Shown piece by piece: positions 1,722 through 28,508 of a DNA stretch of 33,926 bases. The notes under the pieces were generated by a model, which did not search any database, had not been told where the DNA came from, and saw nothing but the letters and a program-made list of their open reading frames with translations. The stretch covers positions 1-33,926 of the forward strand of contig JAUMWN010000021.1 of assembly GCA_030529625.1 (NCBI GenBank). Direction: 5' to 3'. This stretch comes from Coriobacteriales bacterium (GTDB lineage Bacteria; Actinomycetota; Coriobacteriia; Coriobacteriales; Atopobiaceae). The stretch's first letter is position 1, and each line of letters begins with the position of its first letter. A program made the translations under genes and the position numbers.

Positions 1722-1821
1722 GTCGTACAAAGGGGACTGTCCCCCGAGTACGGCTTATGCACGCATTGCGTGCTTGCGGTTGTGCCGAGCTGTACTCGGG
1801 GGACTGTCCCCTTTGTACGAC
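1722..1821. repeat. REP-type inverted pair R1
   Basis: Two 30-base arms (1722-1751 and 1792-1821) are reverse complements with a single mismatch at the centre of the core. Each arm contains the near-palindrome GGGGACTGTCCCC (1732-1744 and 1799-1811), flanked by GTACAAA on one side and CGAGTAC on the other. The 40-base loop holds a smaller hairpin (GCACGC / GCGTGC). This is one of the GGGGACnGTCCCC family spread through the window and probably mobilised by the RAYT at 27694. Confidence 0.85.
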
Positions 1822-8603: not shown

Positions 8604-8623
8604 CGAGTGACACTGCAGGACAG

Positions 8624-8649
8624 AGGTGACGGGGACGTTTGTCCCGTGT
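8624..8649. repeat. Family-B repeat copy B1
   Basis: The 26-base stretch beginning AGGTGACGGGGACGTTTGTC is identical to 24278-24303, and its first 22 bases also occur twice in reverse orientation at 10180-10201 and 10226-10247. It contains the short hairpin GGGAC / GTCCC. Confidence 0.75.
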
Positions 8650-8778: not shown

Positions 8779-9450
8779 TTACCCAGCATACTCAACGGTA
8801 ACGTGCGGCTCGAACTCCAATAGATCCTCGATGGAGCAGCCCAGGAACCAGGATAGACGCGCCAGCACGCCAGCCTGGGCCTTGTTGATGTTGTTTGTCC
8901 GCTGCTCGTATGCTTGGATTGACTTGAGGCCCACGCCTGTGGCGACCGAGAGCTCACGCTGCGAAACGCCCCGGGACGCCCGAATGCGAGCGAGCCTCGT
9001 TTCGCCTGGAGGAACCTGTGCAACGATCGCATCCGCCGCGTCGAAGAAGCACGTTATGTCTGCCTCGTGATACGGGTTGTACAGGCTCACGATTTGTGAA
9101 AAAGGCAGGCGGGTAAACAGATGCTCGAACGTGTAACCATGTTCCCATTGGTATTGGGCAAGTGCCCAGCCTGCCCAATACTCGGCGGAGGCTCCGAGCG
9201 AGCGAATCGCATCGCCGGTATACTGCGCGATGCCAGCCTCTGCGAGCACGTGGTCTGCGAGCTCGATGCCTGACATGCCAGCTACCACCGCAGGATTACC
9301 ACGCTCGAATTGTTGGGCGTAGCCTGTGGTCACGAACAGTCTGCCAAATCTGTCTCCGTTGAGTCCGCAAGCATTCACGACGTAATCGAAGGCGCAGGAA
9401 AGACAGTCCTCAGCGTCGGCAAGGTACATGCTGTTGTATGCGCGGGTCAT
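8779..9450 (-). CDS. DUF3791-like N-terminal region + XRE helix-turn-helix, putative antitoxin/autorepressor (module 2)
   Basis: The protein has 223 residues. The N-terminal part (FDYVVNACGLNGDRFGRLFVT, about 21-41) resembles DUF3791. The middle has an aromatic EYWAGWALAQYQWEHGYTFEHLF block and a NPYHEADITCFFD block (about 90-137). The C-terminal HTH (about 152-211; GVSQRELSVATGVGLKSIQAYEQR) is a standard XRE domain. The gene overlaps the end of the upstream DUF3990 gene by about 41 bases, a tight coupling typical of toxin-antitoxin pairs. An upstream promoter flanked by two identical palindromes (10122-10162) is the likely binding site of this HTH. The antitoxin role is inference; the domain order is seen directly. 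Confidence 0.78.
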   Translation of the reverse strand: MTRAYNSMYLADAEDCLSCAFDYVVNACGLNGDRFGRLFVTTGYAQQFERGNPAVVAGMSGIELADHVLAEAGIAQYTGDAIRSLGASAEYWAGWALAQYQWEHGYTFEHLFTRLPFSQIVSLYNPYHEADITCFFDAADAIVAQVPPGETRLARIRASRGVSQRELSVATGVGLKSIQAYEQRTNNINKAQAGVLARLSWFLGCSIEDLLEFEPHVTVEYAG

Positions 9451-10114
9451 TCGGTCCCATCTCCTCTCGCAGAATGTCGATGACGTACAGATCGTTCAAG
9501 CTGCGTGACGTGCTTGCAGCGAGGTGCTGGTACTCATTTCGGGCCCGTGAATCGCGTGTGACAAAGCGGGGGTAGTACACGCGGGAGCTCACGGATTCGT
9601 ATCCGGTAAAGCTCAGCTTGCAAAAAGCCTCTTCCGATACAAGGACTACTTGTTCGCCCAGATCGCCCAGCCTCATTGCCTCGTCCAAGATGCCAAGCGG
9701 CAGGGTGTTTTCCACAAAGGCACGCGCAAAGCTAAAGTAGGAGTCGTCCGCACGGTAACCAATAACCACGTCGGCGCTCGCAATACTGGGCATGAACCGT
9801 GCAACCAGCTGTTCCCGTGCTGCCGCTGCGGTGGGTAGGCGCAGGTCAAACCGTCGGTTTGCCAAAAGGAGGGCTATCCACTCAAGTGTGGTGTGAGTGC
9901 CGTCCAACAAATCGAGCACGGTAAGACCTTGTGGATCTAGGGCGTAGCTGTTTACAAAACCATCGCTGCCCTTTTGACAAGCCCATTCACATGCTAGATC
10001 CCAATGGGGCGTGGTATAGAAGCCCCTCCCATAGTCGTTATGGGACCGTGCTTTATCGAGGCTGGGTGCATCCACCACAACCTGTGAACCATGATATAGT
10101 TTCCAGTTTTCCAT
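9410..10114 (-). CDS. DUF3990 protein, ADP-ribosyltransferase-like putative toxin (module 2)
   Basis: The protein has 234 residues and starts at the ATG at 10114, with GGGAG just upstream. Motifs: LYHGS with H8, NDYGRGFYTT (26-35, Y33), SADVVIGYRADDSYFSFA (123-140) and GEQVVLVSEEAFCKLSF (163-179). H8 and Y33 are at the same residue numbers as in the module 1 protein at 4838, and the central VIG and late SExA motifs also match, so the two are homologues. The C-terminal extension (about 180-234) is absent from module 1 and contains a possible helical partner-binding segment (RNEYQHLAASTSRSLNDLYVI). It is first in a two-gene minus-strand operon whose second gene encodes the HTH protein. Confidence 0.75.
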   Translation of the reverse strand: MENWKLYHGSQVVVDAPSLDKARSHNDYGRGFYTTPHWDLACEWACQKGSDGFVNSYALDPQGLTVLDLLDGTHTTLEWIALLLANRRFDLRLPTAAAAREQLVARFMPSIASADVVIGYRADDSYFSFARAFVENTLPLGILDEAMRLGDLGEQVVLVSEEAFCKLSFTGYESVSSRVYYPRFVTRDSRARNEYQHLAASTSRSLNDLYVIDILREEMGPNDPRIQQHVPCRR

Positions 10115-10121
10115 AGGACTC

Positions 10122-10162
10122 CCATCACAATGGTATATATAAAGGATATACCATCACAATGG
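10122..10162. promoter_or_regulatory. Operator of the module 2 DUF3990-HTH operon
   Basis: The 12-bp palindrome CCATCACAATGG occurs twice, at 10122-10133 and 10151-10162, 29 bases apart start to start. Between them lies a second inverted repeat, GGTATAT (10132-10138) against ATATACC (10146-10152), which covers the -10 box. This is the layout expected for autorepression by the HTH protein encoded in the operon. Confidence 0.75.
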
Positions 10163-10171
10163 GATAGTCAA
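10143..10171 (-). promoter_or_regulatory. Sigma-70-type promoter of the module 2 operon
   Basis: Read on the minus strand: TTGACT (10171-10166), a 17-base spacer, and TATCCT (10148-10143), about 29 bases before the ATG at 10114. It is embedded in the paired operator described above. Confidence 0.65.
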
Positions 10172-10252
10172 CAATCACAGGGACAAACGTCCCCGTCACC
10201 TTTGTCCGGATAGTCAACAATCACAGGGACAAACGTCCCCGTCACCTTTGTC
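10162..10252. repeat. 46-bp tandem duplication carrying two family-B repeats
   Basis: The unit at 10162-10207 is repeated at 10208-10252 with 45 bases identical. Each copy begins GGATAGTCAACAATCACAGG and contains the family-B word in reverse orientation (10180-10201 and 10226-10247). The first copy supplies the -35 of the module 2 promoter, so the duplication creates a second potential -35 further upstream. Confidence 0.85.
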
Positions 10253-10257
10253 TCGTG

Positions 10258-10722
10258 TCAGTAGCCCTTGGACAGCTCGGTAAAGCCGTCGGGGATGTCG
10301 GAGGTGCTCGGTCCAACGAAGAACTCGTCGCCCGACTGCGCGACGCGGTCGTTGTACATGGACGTCTTCACGAGGTCGCCGTCGAGGGTGCGGTAGGAGT
10401 CGACCTCGTTGATCACGTCGTCCCACATGTTGATGATCTTCTCATTCGTGCTTTCGCCCGTAGAGCTCGTATAGCCGCTCTCCGAGAAGAACGACGTGCC
10501 GTCCGATATGGCGGCGTTCTTGGCGTCCATGGCTACGGCCGCGATCACGGAGGAGATGTATTCCTCTGCGGCATAGTAGTTGGGCGTAAAGTAGGAGTTT
10601 GCGACGATCATCGTGTAGTCGTCGTAGTGCTCCTTGAATGCGGATTCGCTCGTGGCTGAGTAGACAATCGAGTACGGTATTCTCCAGTAGCGGAAGGACT
10701 GGGCGAGGACGGAGCTCGCTAT
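10258..10722 (-). pseudogene. 5'-truncated hypothetical ORF ending at a REP pair
   Basis: A minus-strand frame of about 155 codons ends at TGA 10258-10260 and reads toward 10722, where the REP inverted pair R3 begins. Its only upstream start is a TTG inside the repeat itself, and no ribosome binding site is seen; the internal ATG at 10611 also lacks one. The composition (many Ser, Tyr, Thr, Asp; YYAAEEYISSVIAAVAMDAK) is protein-like and unlike a shadow frame. It looks like the 3' remnant of a larger, possibly exported protein, cut by arrival of the repeat or by deletion. Family not recognised. Confidence 0.5.
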
Positions 10723-10800
10723 GGATAGACAGAGGGGACTGTCCCCCAAGTTTGGCCTCGCCAGAGGCTGAACGTGGGGGACTGTCCCCTCTGTCTATCC
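10723..10800. repeat. REP-type inverted pair R3
   Basis: Arms of 26 bases (10723-10748 and 10775-10800) pair with only the central base of the core unmatched. Each carries GGGGACTGTCCCC, flanked here by GATAGACAGA, so the extended stem differs from the other REP pairs while the core is constant. The 26-base loop contains GCCTC / GAGGC. Confidence 0.85.
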
Positions 10801-15689: not shown

Positions 15690-18600
15690 ATGGCAACTAG
15701 GACGCATCGCTTGCTGCTGGCGCTGGTGCTTCTTGTGAGCATGCTGGGTATTGCCATGCCGGCATATGCCGCAGAACCCTCGTTTGACGGGGATGCGGAG
15801 GCGCTTGCCAATGCAGAGTGGATGTGCGGCATCAGCGGCGATCGCCTGCTCAGCGATATCGTGCTGCCCGGTTCGGCTGGCGCGGCAACCTCGAGCGTCT
15901 TTAACGCGAGCACGGCGACCTCCGGCTTGGCAAACCCGAACCTCGTGACGGCACAGGACCGAACCATCGCCACGCAGCTCACGGACGGCGTGCGCCTGTT
16001 CGAGCTGCATCTTTCCGCGCAAGATCCTGGCAGCGGCTGGAGTGGCAGCAAGGACACCCTGTGGGTAGCCGAACAGGAAGAGGTCAACGGCAACAAGGTC
16101 CTGTACTACGCCCAGGACGCAAGCGACAACGCTATCTCGTTTAAACGGGCCATCAACTATATGCGCTCCTTCCTCAAGAAACACCCCTACGAGACAGTTG
16201 TGGTTGCACTGAGTGAGACAGACGATGCCTCTCAGGTGTTTAGGAAACTGCGCACCGAGCTGGACGACTATAGGAACTACCTGTACTTGGGATCGGAGAT
16301 GCCAAAGCTCAAGGACGTGCGAGGCAAGGTGGTAGTGTGCACGACCCATCCTGAGCTGCTGGGAGAGGATGGCGGCATGGCGTTTCCCGCGCGGGGGACA
16401 ACCTCCTCGGTGAGCGTGGGCGGTGTGCAGTTCTCGCCGCTTGCGGCAACGAACGCAGCAGAGGCGCAGGGCCTTGCGTTTGCGGACTCGGTGCCGCTTG
16501 CAGGCGATGCGCACGCCATCCACTCGAGCGTGGTCTATGCGGGCATGGCGTCCTCTGCCCAAGGCGAGCCCACGCCAAGGGCGCAGGCCAACGAGGTGAA
16601 CCCCGTACTGTTTGATGAGGCCGGGAAGTTTGCCACGCGCGGCACGCTGTATGGCTGGGTGCTTGCGGACTTTATGAATCAGGACCAGGCGCGTCGTCTG
16701 TGGATGGCTAACTTCCCGGACGGCCTGGAGTACTACACGGTGGAGTTTTGGACGAGGCAGCCGACGGAGCGTGTGGTGCATCAAACGCACGTGCTCAAGC
16801 GCGCTTCGGCGTACTCGCCAGCCATCGAGAACGTACCAGGCAAGTATCTGGACGGATGGTTAACCGATGACGGTACGCACCTGTACAAGCTGGACGAGGG
16901 AATACCCATAACGCAGGACAACACGAAGCTGTGGGCTTCGTGGACTATGTCGTGGGCAAGTCTGGCGGACTGGCTGTCGCAGCAGGGTGGCAAGACCGCG
17001 AGCGTCTCCTTGGAGCGCGACCTCACGGCGACGCCTCTGGATCGTGCGTTAATCGTGCCTGCCGGGGCCGACGTCACTATTGACCTTGCGGGGTACACGC
17101 TGGACCGAGGACTTACGACAGCGGGGCGGAGCGAGGAGGGTGGCTCCGTCGTGCAGCTGGAATCGGGTGCGAAACTCACGCTCACCGGTGCAGGAATGCT
17201 CACCGGTGGGTATACCACTGGCTTGGGCGGCGGCGTGCTCATGAGCGAGGACTCCACGCTCGTGCTGGATGGCGTTACCATTACGGGCAACGTCGCGCAG
17301 GGTGGCGGCGCAGGCGTCTATGTGCCCAACGGTTCGACGCCCCAGAAGAACGCGAACCTTGTGGTTAAGGGTGCCACAGAGGTCACGGGCAACCGAAAGA
17401 ACTTCTCGGGTTGGCCACGGCAGCAGAGCAACGTGGTCTTGGGTGAGGACGTAACGCTCACGATTGACGACACTCTGGCAAACGAGGCGCGCATAGGCGT
17501 GACCACGTTTAAAAAGCCCACATCGGGAAACTACGTCACGTTTACGCAGGGGTTGTCCGGCAAAGGAAGTGCGAGCAACTTTACCAGCGATGACGAGGCA
17601 TGCCTGGTGGGCCAGGTGGAAGGTGAGGGCGTGCTCACGACCGGCGTTGTGGTGCGGTTTAACACCATGGGCGGAAACTCCATGGCCGACCAGCTGGTTG
17701 CAGAGGGTACGCACGTGCCCGTGCCCAAAAACCCGTGGAAGTATGACAAGAGACGCGTGGGCGTCGACGAGCTCAACGGCGAATGTGCGTTTAGGGGATG
17801 GTACAAGGACGAGACGTGCTCGCAGCCTTGGGACTTCGACCAAGACATTGTGACAACCGATATGCTGCAGAGTGGTCTCACACTCTATGCCAAGTGGGGC
17901 GTGCGCTATACCTTTAACAGCGACGATGGCTCGGAACCGGTGAGCAACGATTCTAACCACCCAATGCAATACGACGCTGCCTTGGGCTACTACTACATTG
18001 ACCTCGATTATGGAGAGCAGCTCAGCTTTGACGATTCGTCCGTTACTATGCCGTCCTCCACAAAGACGGGCTGGGAGCTTGGTGGTTGGACGTACTATAC
18101 CGAACCGGCCGACCAGGTGGGGATGCTCTTCGACTTCAATACGCCTGCTACGATGAGCCTCGCGTTTACGGGGCGCTGGCGCAAGCCACGTGGCCCGCAG
18201 TACACGGTTTGGTTCAGCCCGCACAACCGCACCTCTGAGCTGCCCTTCATAACGGTGTACAGCGGCGATAAGATTAATCAGAATCAGGTGCCCACTGTCG
18301 TCGAGCCTGGGAACGAAGGCCAGGGGACCATCACCAGGCTTGAGGGATGCGAGCTTGAGGGGTGGTACAAGGACTCCAACTGCACGCGAGCGTGGGACTT
18401 CGCTACCAATACGGTAACCGCCGACACGGTACTCCATGCAAAGTGGCGGGCGAAGACATACAAGGTCAAGTTCATGAGCACGGATGGTGAGAACGAGCTG
18501 GCACCCGAGCAGAACGTCCCCTACGGCGAATGTGCCACGAAGCCAAACGATCCTACCGCGGTCGAGGGATACCGGTTTGCCGGTTGGCAGGACCCGCGGG

Positions 18601-21600
18601 ACAGGCCGGGCTATCCCTACCTGTTTACGCGGCCCATCACGCAAGACCTCACGCTCAAGGCCATATGGAAGGTCCTCTCATACACGGTCTCCTTTGATGC
18701 CGAGGGCGGCACGCTGGCACCCTACACCAATTCGCAGAAGATAGAGCATGGTCACCAGGCCACTAAACCAGGCGACCCCACACGAGAGGGCTACACGTTC
18801 CAGGGATGGTACGTTACCAATCCAAGTGCGACATACAACTTCAGCACGCCAGTGACAGCAGACTTCGTCCTGCATGCCGCCTGGCAAAAGCAGTGCACGA
18901 TAACGTTCGACGCGGCTGGTGGCACTATGGCGGGCGAGCAGAGCCGCACCGTTGCGTATGGTGCACCGATTGGTACGCTGCCTACACCCGCGAAGGGAAC
19001 GGACCTGTTCTGCGGTTGGTTCCACAATGGAATGCTCGTCGACGCCTCGACAACGGTGACGAGCAACATGACGCTCGTGGCGCAATGGCGCGCCAATGAG
19101 CCACAAACGTTCACGGTCGTCTTCGACTCCAAGGGGGGTAGCGCCGTACCGTCGCAAACGGTCGCAGTGGACGGACTTGTGACGAAGCCGACGGATCCAA
19201 CCTACGGTGAGCGCACGTTCCAAGGCTGGCGTGCCAAGGGACAGGAGAGTCTGTTCGACTTCACCCAGGCCGTTCCCGACGGTTTGATAGTCAATGGCGT
19301 CCTCACGCTCGAGGCCGTATGGTTGCCCGCCCAACGTACTGTCTCCTTTGATGCTGGGGACGCCGGATCCAATGCCACAGGTATGCCCATCGCACAAACC
19401 ATGGCATATGGCTCGACGGTCTTGGAGCCAACCGACCCGGTATGGCAGGGATACGTGTTCAAACATTGGGTGAAAGACGGGGAGTCCACGCCATACGACT
19501 TTACCACACCGGTTACGGAGGACTTTACGTTGTGCGCGGTGTGGGCAAAGCTCTGCACCGTCACCTTTGACTCGGCGGGCGGAAGCGACGTGCAGTCGCA
19601 GGTCGTCGTTGAGGGGGACGTGGCAATCAGGCCGGAGAACCCCATTCACAACGACCACCACACCTTTGGCGGTTGGTTCGAGAATGACGCAACTGAGCCC
19701 TTCACCTTTACGACGCCCATCACAGACGACCTCACGCTGCATGCCCACTGGACCGTGAGCACGTACACGGTGACGTTCAACACGGGTGAGGGAGGCAGCG
19801 CGGTTGCCGGGCAGACGGTGGAGTGCGGCGCCTGTGCCACCGAGCCCGAGAATCCCACGCGGGAGGGGCGTGATTTTCTCTACTGGCATCAGCAGGGCAG
19901 CGATGTGGCCTACGACTTCAACACGCCAGTTACGGGCGACCTCACGCTGGTGGCCGCGTGGAACGAGCATCCCACCTATAACGTGTTCTTTGACTCAGCG
20001 GGCGGCAGTGCAGTGGAGTCGCAGAGCGTGGCGTGGGGTGGTCTGGTGGAGCGGCCGTTCGATCCCACGAAGGAGGGTATGCGGTTTGCCGGCTGGTACG
20101 TGGGCGACACGCAGACGGCATACGACTTTGCCACGCCAGTTGTGGGCGACCTCACGTTGGTGGCCCACTGGACCGACGTTGCCGAGCTGCCAATGCATAC
20201 GGTGACGTTCCAGGTGAACAAGGAGGGATGGACCGAAGAGGGCACCTGGAAAGACGGCACGACGGCGGACAAGACGCAGCCCGTGCAGGAGGGGAGCTGC
20301 GTCAGTGAGCCCAGTCCCAATCCCACGCGCGACAATTACACGCTCGACGGCTGGTACGAACTCATATCCAAAAGGGAAGCTCTCAGGCTGCTCGCTAATC
20401 CCAAGATCAAGGACGTCCTGTGGATTGACGGCGATGAGACGCTCGTGTCCTACAATTTCCGCAATCCGGTTACCAGCAACATCACGCTGCGTGCGCGTTG
20501 GCGGGGAGTCCCGCACACGGTCACCTTCGACACCTGCGGTGGCAGCGAGTTGAGTCCCGTGACGTGCAGACACGGAGAGCGTCTTGGCAGTGTGTCAGCC
20601 CCCATAAAAGACGGATGCTACTTCGTGGGATGGTCGCGTGTTGCGGGCGACTTTACCAGCATCGAGGACACGCACTTCCTGCTCGTCAATGAGGACATGA
20701 CTCTCCATGCGAACTGGAGCGAGTTTATCCCCATGCATGTGGACGTGGACCCCAATAACGGCGAGGCCACGACAAGGCAGGACGTGGCGTTCTTCTCTCA
20801 AGCGCAAAGGCCAACAAGCGATCCGGTGCGCGAGGGCCATGAGTTTGACGGCTGGTTTGAGGTTCTGTCCCAAGGCTACGTCTCGCCTGAGTCGGCAAAG
20901 AGGTTCTGGGGGTCGGATCCCGATTACGAGAGCAAGATCCACATCGACACCATTGACGGAACCGAACGGGTACTGAGGCGATACAACTTTGCCATGCCCG
21001 TCACGCACAACATACAGCTGCGTGCGCAGTGGATCGCGAACGCGCTTACCGTTACGTTTGTGAGCGGCAATGAGGTCGTGGATGAGCAGGAGGTTGCGTG
21101 GGGCTCGCAGGCAACGCCGACGCAGGACCCCTATAGGAACGGGTACGTGTTCGTTGGCTGGTATGCGGACGAGGCGCTCACGAAGGCGTACGACTTTACG
21201 GAGCCGGTTACTCAGAACCTCACTCTGTATGCGAAGTTCAAGGAGGCGGGCGAGGGTGACGTTCCGGGCACGCCGGGTGCGGACCCAACCCCGACCGATC
21301 CCGTCCAAGAGACGTATGGCATACGCACAAGCATCGCCATTGGTTTGGGGGCTCCCGTGGTCTCTCAGCGCGAGGGTAGCTTTGACGCCGTTATGCGCGC
21401 GATGTTTGCGCAGGAGGTTGCCAAGCAGGACGTGTTCGTTACGCTCGCCTCGAACGCGGTGCAGGAGCAAGACCTTGCAGATGACGAGCGGTCCCTCGCA
21501 ACGGCCAAGCTGGGCGAGCTGGGTGCCCAGGTGGGGGTGTGGTTCGACCTGTCGATTGCCAAGCGTGCGGGAAGCGAGCAGGCCAACCCCGTGGCCGTGC

Positions 21601-22756: not shown

Positions 22757-23443
22757 ATGGCGGAGTTCGAGCTAACACCCATTACGGTGCTCGTGGGACA
22801 TGCGGGCGTGGGAAAGACCAACGTTGCGCTGGGGCTTGCGCTGGAGCAGGCCGCTGCGGGACACGAGGTGACGCTGGCTGACCTCGACGTGGTAAACCCA
22901 TACTTCCGCTCGAGTGACTATCCGCAGTTGCTCGCAAGTGCTGGCGTGCGCCTTATCGCGCCGGTGCTCGCGCGCACCACGCTCGACACGCCCAGCCTGT
23001 CGGGCGAGCTTGACGCGGTTATTGGCGCGGTGAGACGTGACCCGCAGCAGCGGCTCATCCTGGACGTGGGTGGCGACGATGACGGTGCCACCACGGTGGG
23101 TCGCTGGTCTGGCATGCTGCGCGAGGTCGGTGCACAGGTGCTGTATGCCGTGTCGGCGTTCCGTGCGCTCACGCAAACGCCTCAGGAGGCGGCGTCCATG
23201 CTGCCCAGCATAGAGGAGCATGCGCACCTGCAGGCGACCGGTATTCTCAACACCTCCAACCTGGGTGACGCGACGACTGCAGAGCACGTGGACCGGGGAC
23301 GCGCCTTTGCCGCCGAGGTGGCGCGCCTGTGTGACCTGCCGCTCGTCGCCACCATCGTGCCCGAGGCGGCACACTATGTGCCCCGCGCCACCGAACCCGT
23401 CGTGGTGATGCCCCGCCACGTCCGCACCCCCTGGGACTCCTAA
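22757..23443 (+). CDS. P-loop ATPase, MinD/ParA/CobQ-like
   Basis: The protein has 228 residues from ATG 22757, after a GAGGAG-rich ribosome site. It has a Walker A motif GHAGVGKTNVA (14-24), a switch-like DLDVVNPYFRSSD segment (about 43-55) typical of the SIMIBI class, and a Walker B-like RLILDVGGDDDGA. No membrane-targeting helix or DNA-binding domain is visible. Its cellular role is not clear. The gene stands alone on its strand between the MNT-HEPN pair and a phosphatase, and its stop codon is the first base of REP pair R4. Confidence 0.8.
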   Translation: MAEFELTPITVLVGHAGVGKTNVALGLALEQAAAGHEVTLADLDVVNPYFRSSDYPQLLASAGVRLIAPVLARTTLDTPSLSGELDAVIGAVRRDPQQRLILDVGGDDDGATTVGRWSGMLREVGAQVLYAVSAFRALTQTPQEAASMLPSIEEHAHLQATGILNTSNLGDATTAEHVDRGRAFAAEVARLCDLPLVATIVPEAAHYVPRATEPVVVMPRHVRTPWDS

Positions 23444-23498
23444 CCTGCACTCGGGGGACAGTCCCCTGTGTTTAGGGGACAGTCCCCCGAGTGCAGGT
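23443..23498. repeat. REP-type inverted pair R4 between convergent genes
   Basis: Arms 23443-23467 and 23474-23498 (25 bases, central core mismatch only) enclose a 6-base loop. The core is GGGGACAGTCCCC with flank ACCTGCACTCG, the same flank as in the R6 arms near 27564. It overlaps the ATPase stop codon and sits 4 bases from the convergent phosphatase stop, so it can serve as a terminator for both. Confidence 0.85.
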
Positions 23499-24228: not shown

Positions 24229-24269
24229 GTCGGTGCCTCCTTATGCGTTGGCTCCATCGTACCATCGCG

Positions 24270-24303
24270 CGGGACAAAGGTGACGGGGACGTTTGTCCCG
24301 TGT
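24270..24303. repeat. Family-B repeat copy B4
   Basis: CGGGACAAA (24270-24278) pairs with TTTGTCCCG (24292-24300). The 26 bases 24278-24303 are identical to 8624-8649. It lies in the divergent gap upstream of the phosphatase gene. Confidence 0.75.
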
Positions 24304-27487: not shown

Positions 27488-27502
27488 CGTAAGCTGAACT
27501 GA

Positions 27503-27628
27503 GGGGACAGTCCCCCGAGTGCAGGCCTCGAGGAGCCGCACTTGGGGGACTTTCTTTTTGCGACCTGCACTCGGGGGACCGTCCCCCCAGGGCCGGTCTC
27601 AAGGGGACCGTCCCCTCAGGGCTGGTTT
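27503..27628. repeat. REP cluster R6 upstream of the RAYT gene
   Basis: Three cores are present: GGGGACAGTCCCC (27503-27515), GGGGACCGTCCCC (27574-27586) and GGGGACCGTCCCC (27603-27615). Arms 27503-27525 and 27564-27586 pair at 22 of 23 positions. The last copy continues into TCAGGGCTGGTTTT, which is the inverted counterpart of the sequence just after the RAYT stop. Confidence 0.85.
27510..27559 (+). terminator. Intrinsic terminator of the oxidoreductase operon, nested in a REP
   Basis: GTCCCCCGAGTGC (27510-27522) pairs with GCACTTGGGGGAC (27538-27550; 12 of 13) and is followed by the T-tract TTTCTTTTT (27551-27559). The left arm can instead pair perfectly over 15 bases with 27565-27579, so two folds compete. 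Confidence 0.75.
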
Positions 27629-27693
27629 TGTGTATGGCGAAGTGCGGTCATGGGTATAAGACAAACTTACAAAGCGACTGCTGGGGGGATCAT

Positions 27694-28440
27694 ATGCCGC
27701 ATCAAGCACGCAGGAGGAGTGGGTCAGGGTACTACCATGTCGTGTCAAAGGGGATAAACGGGCAAGACATCTTTGAGTGTGATGCGGATAGGCGCATGTA
27801 CCGGTCGCTTCTTGGCAAGGCCAGAGAAGTGACTGGTGTCTTGATCCTTGCCTACTGTCTGATGAGCAATCACGTGCACCTCGTGCTGGATGACCCCCAG
27901 CAGCACGTGAGCGACTTTGTTAAGTACGTGCACGAACGCTACGGTGCCGCGTATTGCAGGCAATACGATCGGGTGGGTGGCATCTTTGTCAAGAAATTCT
28001 GGAGCGAGCCCATAGAGACGGACAGCCACCTGCTCTGTGCCGTGCGGTATGTGCACGCGAATCCAGCCAATGCAGGCATTTGCAAGGCGGCGGCCTATGA
28101 GTGGAGTAGCGCAAAGGACTACCTTGGGCGCAAAGGGTTCTGTGATACGAACATGGTGCTCGACATGTGTGGCGGCGTGGAGGGATTCGTACGCTTTAGT
28201 CAGCCCTGCAACGCAACGTTTCTCCCCTTCCCGGGAAGCAAGCTCTTGAACCACTTGAGCGATGAAGAGGCGCGGTCCATTGCCACGGACATTCTTGGCC
28301 ATAACCCAAGCCTGCTCGCCTCAAAACAAAAAGAGGAACGCAATCGAGGCATCTCCCTTCTTCGGGAGCGCGGGTTTCCCGTCAAGCTCATCGTGCGCCT
28401 TACGGGCATCGGCAAGTACATAGTCTCGCATGCCACATAA
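27694..28440 (+). CDS. REP-associated tyrosine transposase (RAYT), Y1/IS200-like
   Basis: The protein has 248 residues. ATG 27694 is preferred because a G-run lies about 6 bases upstream and because MPHQARRRSGSGYYHVVSKGINGQDIF is the usual start of this family; TTG 27628 and ATG 27634 are less likely. The HUH motif is SNHVHLVLDD and the YVHANPANAGICKAA region should hold the nucleophilic tyrosine. The C-terminal part (ERGFPVKLIVRLTGIGKYIVS) resembles the extra helix-turn-helix of this group. RAYTs bind and move REP hairpins with single-stranded DNA chemistry. Inverted REPs flank the gene on both sides, and the same core is found around the window, so this enzyme is the likely agent of their spread. 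All recognisable motifs are intact. Confidence 0.88.
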   Translation: MPHQARRRSGSGYYHVVSKGINGQDIFECDADRRMYRSLLGKAREVTGVLILAYCLMSNHVHLVLDDPQQHVSDFVKYVHERYGAAYCRQYDRVGGIFVKKFWSEPIETDSHLLCAVRYVHANPANAGICKAAAYEWSSAKDYLGRKGFCDTNMVLDMCGGVEGFVRFSQPCNATFLPFPGSKLLNHLSDEEARSIATDILGHNPSLLASKQKEERNRGISLLRERGFPVKLIVRLTGIGKYIVSHAT

Positions 28441-28508
28441 AAACCAGCCCCAGGGGGACGGTCCCCCAAAACCCCGCCCCAGGGGGACGGTCCCCCTGGG
28501 GCTGGTTT
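28441..28508. repeat. REP-type inverted pair R7 downstream of the RAYT gene
   Basis: Arms 28441-28467 and 28482-28508 (27 bases, 26 paired) begin AAACCAGCCCCAGGGGGAC and contain the core with centre G. The loop is 14 bases. It starts right after the RAYT stop and mirrors the upstream R6 copy, so the gene lies between inverted REPs. It may also act as terminator, followed by TTTCCC. Confidence 0.88.

Follow-up and report, generated by a model that had tools for sequence, protein, structure and literature searches.

The window analysed here is a contig stretch of 33,926 nt, in which the locus at 27503-28508 comprises a gene between repeats. The gene (27694..28440, plus strand) encodes a RAYT-like Y1/HUH protein of 248 aa plus stop, and its ATG start, which follows GGGGGG, agrees with that of its homologues. 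The product matches Pfam Y1_Tnp (1.6e-8) and the NCBIfam model REP_Tyr_transpos (2e-15, yet under that model's own cut-off). The gene had been predicted to be an intact HUH gene, and this holds: the reading frame is open, the NHVH motif lies at aa 59-62 (27868..27879, plus strand), with H60 and H62 invariant among 20 relatives and again among 54, and the presumed catalytic Tyr119 lies in YVHANP (28048..28050, plus strand), with Y119 and N123 invariant and P124 invariant or nearly so in the same two sets. The C-terminus forms a helical, helix-turn-helix-like domain (aa 190-248; 28261..28437, plus strand), with helices at 190-245 in an AF2 model of mean pLDDT 91; HTH_23 was matched there in 11 and HTH_28 in 5 of 20 relatives, all proteins of the genus, and the window protein itself gave no HTH profile match. 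Since a PDB sequence search returned weak matches only (E 0.14), a fold search was used, and its first-ranked entry was 4er8, a RAYT bound to a REP hairpin (E 7.5e-7, TM 0.75 on target), followed by the ISDra2 and IS608 transposases. The genome (G000) encodes three Y1 proteins, namely the window RAYT, which is single-copy, one on contig C46 (35% identity), and a true IS200-like one on C150.

Exact copies of the core GGGGACNGTCCCC lie at 27503, 27574, and 27603 before the gene and at 28454 and 28483 after it. The whole window has 11 exact cores, and 12 matches when up to two mismatches are allowed, vs 2.8 expected, a number reached by 0 of 100 shuffles. Next to the gene, each side has two repeats in direct tandem, 29 bp apart, and the two sides are mutually inverted: the upstream arm (27574..27629, plus strand) consists of two direct copies of GGGGACCGTCCCC-YCAGGGCYGGTYT, and the downstream arm (28439..28508, minus strand) of two direct copies, each with a CCAGCCCCAG or CCCGCCCCAG arm plus GGGGACGGTCCCC, closed by CTGGGGCTGGTTT. 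The inverted bracket described in the original prediction was recovered, as the upstream copy ends in TCAGGGCTGGTTTT (27616-27629), the downstream copy starts with AAAACCAGCCC at the stop codon, and the flank-to-flank inverted match scores 29.5 vs a swapped-flank 99th percentile of 17.45. Folding as single-stranded DNA gave one long hairpin for the downstream pair (z -9.1) and none for the upstream pair (z -0.4). The copies touching the gene have C/G-centred cores and CCAGCC arms, and the dialect that is dispersed elsewhere is found at this locus only in the more distal upstream copies (27490..27573, plus strand; CTGAACTGA-core-CGAGTGCAGG with an A centre and the left arm CCTGCACTCG). The A-centred core GGGGACAG matches the published motif GGGGWSAS, which the gene-proximal C/G cores do not. 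No Rfam family was matched in the window, and a tRNA search of it found none. The proposed self-standing RAYT unit between REPs thus stands as an intact HUH gene within an inverted-repeat bracket, but not as a classical GTAG RAYT.

Across the 2.98-Mb genome, GGGGACNGTCCCC occurs 429 times vs once for the reversed control, in agreement with the predicted repeat family. The centre base is A or T in 419 of the 429 copies and C or G in 10. Within a sample of 510 kb, 90 of 94 cores had an A or T centre, and all four C/G cores touch the window RAYT gene; the six exact window cores away from the gene locus are A/T-centred. Where sampled, the arms of the dispersed copies are mostly of the CTGCACTSG or GTAGACAAA type, and a 21-bp core spacing is frequent. 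Examples in the window are two dispersed copies with a T centre (1727..1821), an inverted pair with GGATAGACAGA arms (10723..10800; DNA fold z -13.4), and an inverted pair with an A centre, 21-bp core spacing, and the linker TGTGTTTA (23441..23497; DNA fold z -9.2).

The claim that this gene is the source of the family is weakened by the difference between the C/G-centred CCAGCC copies that touch it and the A/T majority. That difference favours a rival explanation, to which we give real weight while holding it the less probable, in which the window RAYT serves only the small C/G dialect and the 419 A/T copies owe their spread to some other RAYT that has since been lost or that the draft does not contain. 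The draft could indeed lack a RAYT, because the assembly is 89.9% complete with 7.5% contamination. The window RAYT is the only GGGGACNGTCCCC-flanked one in the genome; the C46 RAYT is flanked by a different palindrome with three genome copies, all adjoining the C46 gene, and on that ground was rejected as the source of the core family. Against a different spreader stand the distal upstream copies at the window locus, which belong to the dispersed dialect, and the RAYTs of two relatives (G010 and G004), which at ~40% identity are themselves flanked by the A/T core, so that this core appears to be recognised by a wider clade.

A second palindromic family (GGGACAAAGGTGACGGGGACGTTTGTCCC type), also GGGGAC-tagged, is present in the window at 8615-8649, 10162-10258, and 24269-24303, with 70 copies of GGGGACGTTTGTCC in the genome. 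It matches the repeats beside the C27 RAYT clade of G008 and the broken RAYT of G012, and no RAYT of the matching clade was found in the G000 assembly, which counts against the window gene as a general source and lends support to a separate, absent spreader for the A/T copies. Just beside palindromes of this second family, on the minus strand at 8779-10114, a DUF3990 protein adjoins a Cro/C1-type HTH protein, a toxin-antitoxin-like arrangement by look only. Elsewhere in the window, at 17783-21244, diverged repeats of ~60 bp recur in nine copies in register within an apparent long coding stretch, probably a repetitive surface protein.

The outer arms of the repeats pair within a site more than with sites shuffled (64 clusters of G000, z up to 5.7 at offsets 5-6), and within-site pairing was weaker in the other three genomes tested. 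The arms are therefore site-specific and mutually complementary, a pattern that could arise by selection for a hairpin, by template switching, or by insertion into palindromes already present. A fixed mismatch (bulge) in paired cores was rejected, because the centre bases are equal at some sites and complementary at others. As regards insertion into terminator loops, arm pairing often extends without a break beyond the core, and inspection by eye showed no T-tract. Arms that vary between sites and pair within them, together with the placing of 36 of 50 repeat clusters outside the crudely called ORFs, which make up 80% of the sample, would suit palindromes that are host elements (transcription ends or chromosome-organising sites) under selection and local template switching, with the RAYT as a domesticated user; some orthologous intergenic sites holding different palindromes in different species point the same way. 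We consider this origin improbable, as both the dialect and the number of copies change with the RAYT from genome to genome, and two families are almost absent from genomes where they flank no RAYT.

The history of the sites bears on whether the gene and its repeats move as one. G002 and G005 have the same upstream (POR-domain oxidoreductase) and downstream (rplC leader) neighbours with no RAYT at the site, RAYT positions differ between species, and the downstream repeat abuts the RAYT stop codon in many relatives. These features would be expected of an IS-like element whose gene and repeats transpose together, the dispersed copies being non-autonomous (MITE-like) derivatives. Such an element is nevertheless unlikely: each RAYT lineage is single-copy per genome, and the RAYT-less sites of G002 and G005 hold palindromes of other dialects rather than being clean empty sites. 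The palindrome in the L227-L237 interval before the rplC leader differs in many species of the genus. G000 was also compared with G010 or G012 at another five orthologous sites, of which the relative had another palindrome at four and was empty at one, these being raw counts in a small sample. In place of the 10723 pair, G010 (flanks 97 and 96% identical) has one palindrome that shares its GGATAGACAGA arms, together with ~870 bp of additional sequence. The segment missing from G000 stops exactly at the outer end of the 10723-10800 repeat, and its deletion removes the 5' part of a minus-strand gene, which fits processing at the repeat end or a palindrome-induced deletion.

Among 16 genomes of the genus, core counts range from 0 to 429 and RAYT homologues occur in 14; a protein-family search contributed no more than fragments in G006 and returned nothing for G001. 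Most RAYTs of the genus sit between palindromes of their own. Core counts are higher in genomes with a RAYT that is itself flanked by the GGGGACNGTCCC(C)-type repeat (429, 223, 138, and 35 vs 0-79; Mann-Whitney p 0.009 over 16 genomes, with a grouping made post hoc, after the flanks had been seen). The sequence GGGGGAGTACCCC, which flanks the RAYT of G013, has 153 copies there, 6 in G015, and 0-1 in other genomes, and GGGGACAGGTCACTTGTC, which flanks the RAYTs of G004 and G015, has 104 copies in G004, 80 in G015, 8 in G009, and none elsewhere. The dialect-by-genome matrix is thus near-diagonal, these two families being all but restricted to genomes in which they flank a RAYT. Amplification of the flank dialect was seen for five RAYTs in four genomes (that of G013, two in G004, C22 of G010, and C76 of G015), and in G010 and G004 the arms of the sampled dispersed cores resemble the flanks of one of the RAYTs present. 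At least four RAYTs are flanked by repeats yet have no large family (C46 of G000, those of G003 and G014, and C46 of G015), the G003/G014 dialect numbering 7 and 2 copies.

The expectation that genomes without a matching RAYT would also be without cores was contradicted in part. In G012, which is 99% complete, 73 cores occur, yet the one RAYT is broken and, being of another dialect, does not match them; many of its 68 C/G-centred cores have ACCAGCCG-type arms, which resemble the CCAGCC flanks of the window gene, and such persistence of a family beyond the presence of its RAYT again favours a lost or missing spreader for the A/T copies of G000. G007 and G008 have 79 and 72 cores, and the best-matching RAYT in each is flanked by another palindrome. 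Because cores occur in these three genomes without a matching enzyme, repeat families can exist without a RAYT that matches them at present, and the role of source is for the window gene a candidate role only. What survives of the original prediction on this point is the tie between dialects and transposases across the genus and the higher core counts of genomes with a core-flanked RAYT. The genus supplies enzymes paired naturally with their repeats, repeat families that lack an enzyme, and one genome free of RAYTs, so that dialect recognition, and whether RAYTs spread repeats, are open to direct testing.

A scan of named genomes added 80 loci, the best from Coriobacteriia (Collinsella, Olsenella, Enorma, Thermophilibacter, Adlercreutzia, and Gordonibacter) and then mostly from Bacillota. 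Inverted flanks exceeded the swapped-flank 99th percentile at 74 of 89 usable loci, the genus set included. The 6-mer most common to both flanks was GGGGAC, found at 50 of 88 loci vs 1.2 expected from far flanks, and GGGGAC[AG]G was present in both flanks at 49% of loci vs 14% for GGGGWSAS. Tagging by GTAG was rejected, as GT[AG]G is not enriched in near flanks (0.90-0.92 vs 0.96 of far flanks), and no conserved GTAG was seen beside the sampled cores. Repeat similarity tracks protein identity (Mantel r 0.34, reached by 0 of 2000 permutations), rising from a mean of 0.25 at 20-30% protein identity to 0.70 above 60%; the test took in only loci with repeats above threshold, with proteins at least 90% identical collapsed, and a few of its loci are the same genome seen via two tools. 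The flank repeats of G005, G002, and G015 also occur at named loci in metagenome assemblies assigned to Atopobiaceae or Coriobacteriaceae, of which two derive from yak and sheep jejunum, so that the genus is probably a gut-dwelling one of the Atopobiaceae.

The evidence in hand comprises the gene, the fold of a REP-bound RAYT, conserved active-site residues, inverted flanks, more than 400 core copies, and the co-variation of dialects with RAYTs. The reading that we favour, with a probability of roughly 70%, is that the unit is a group 1/subclass 2.1 type gene (TIRYT) with its own terminal palindromic inverted repeats (a TIRtron), acting on GGGGAC hairpins. Nicking and strand transfer on single-stranded hairpins are described for IS200/IS605 and the E. 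coli RAYT (PMC8266576). By analogy, the window protein would bind GGGGAC-tagged hairpins in single-stranded DNA, with GGGGAC as the recognition tag, and its fold and active site suggest that Tyr119 may nick beside them; strand transfer could then move or copy repeat pairs elsewhere in a REPIN-like manner, with the C-terminal domain as a putative extra DNA contact. The protein would most directly serve the adjoining C/G-centred CCAGCC dialect, and the best candidate at hand, still unproven, for the spreader of the A/T majority is this protein or its immediate ancestor, which would have recognised the shared core less strictly.

Among the known systems closest to this unit is the TIRYT/TIRtron, in which an HUH tyrosine transposase gene lies between terminal inverted repeats, many with GGGGWSAS, and whose repeats include families of dimers or clusters and self-complementary forms (Di Nocera et al. 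2013, PMC3733652). Both consist of an HUH gene inside inverted repeats led by a GGGG motif; here, however, the shared motif is better given as GGGGAC[AG]G, the copies number in the hundreds and are largely palindromic, and the host is a gut member of Coriobacteriia. The window protein has the Y1_Tnp domain together with the NH[VYF]H and Y-x3-NP motifs of TIRYTs, its terminal inverted repeats lie well above threshold, and its 248 aa compare with ~238 aa for TIRYTs with their C-terminal HTH extension (HTH_23, HTH_28, or Bac_DnaA_C like), which is matched by profile in its relatives only. TIRYTs have been equated with subclass 2.1, the largest non-IS subclass of TnpA-Y1 enzymes, and with RAYT group 1 (Quentin et al. 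2018, PMC6006769, which relays the grouping of Bertels et al. 2017). The proteins of that subclass and those studied here are alike in length (~240 aa), NHVH, Y-x3-NP, an FQ-type motif in most relatives, and an HTH_23/HTH_28-like C-terminus. The window gene fits this type by its motifs, the HTH matches of its relatives, and its GGGGAC repeats, an assignment from sequence features rather than from a position in the published tree. No REP-like sequences were found near subclass 2.1 genes in that survey (PMC6006769), whereas 74 of the 89 loci here have flanking inverted, mostly hairpin-forming repeats; a branch thought to be REP-less thus has most of its examined relatives accompanied by repeats, each in its own dialect.

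The IS200/IS605 type (subclass 1.1), with a short protein, Y-x3-Q, and near-identical multiple copies, was rejected as an identity in view of YVHANP, 248 aa, and a single copy. The REPtron or REPIN-RAYT systems of E. coli, Pseudomonas, and Stenotrophomonas (groups 2 and 3) resemble the present one in their single-copy HUH gene and high-copy, intergenic palindromes, in inverted pairs that fold as hairpins, in having one dialect per enzyme, and in supplying the best PDB match, 4er8. Unlike them, the unit has a longer protein with a C-terminal HTH-like domain and no GT[AG]G at the hairpin foot, and GGGGAC lies inside the palindrome instead of forming an unpaired 5' tetranucleotide; a classical GTAG-type RAYT was rejected for want of GT[AG]G enrichment. 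The CGTC-tagged REPs of Di Nocera et al. (2013, PMC3733652) offer a possible parallel, in that the complement of GGGGACG contains CGTC; those families have stems of 8-9 bp whose CGTC end is unpaired, and no transposase is associated with them. In the literature available to the search, no paper on REPs or RAYTs of Coriobacteriia was found. It is conceivable, if rather doubtful, that GGGGAC palindromes make up another REP superfamily in addition to the GTAG and CGTC ones, which group 1 RAYTs would drive in Coriobacteriia and Bacillota, with arms rewritten per site and the same intergenic sites occupied by species-specific dialects. Di Nocera et al. (2013, PMC3733652) considered that TIRYTs may be less productive than RAYTs. 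An enzyme kind surveyed as REP-less and poor at spreading repeats goes here with conspicuous palindrome families that are species-specific, can number hundreds of copies, and share a common GGGGAC tag in place of GTAG.
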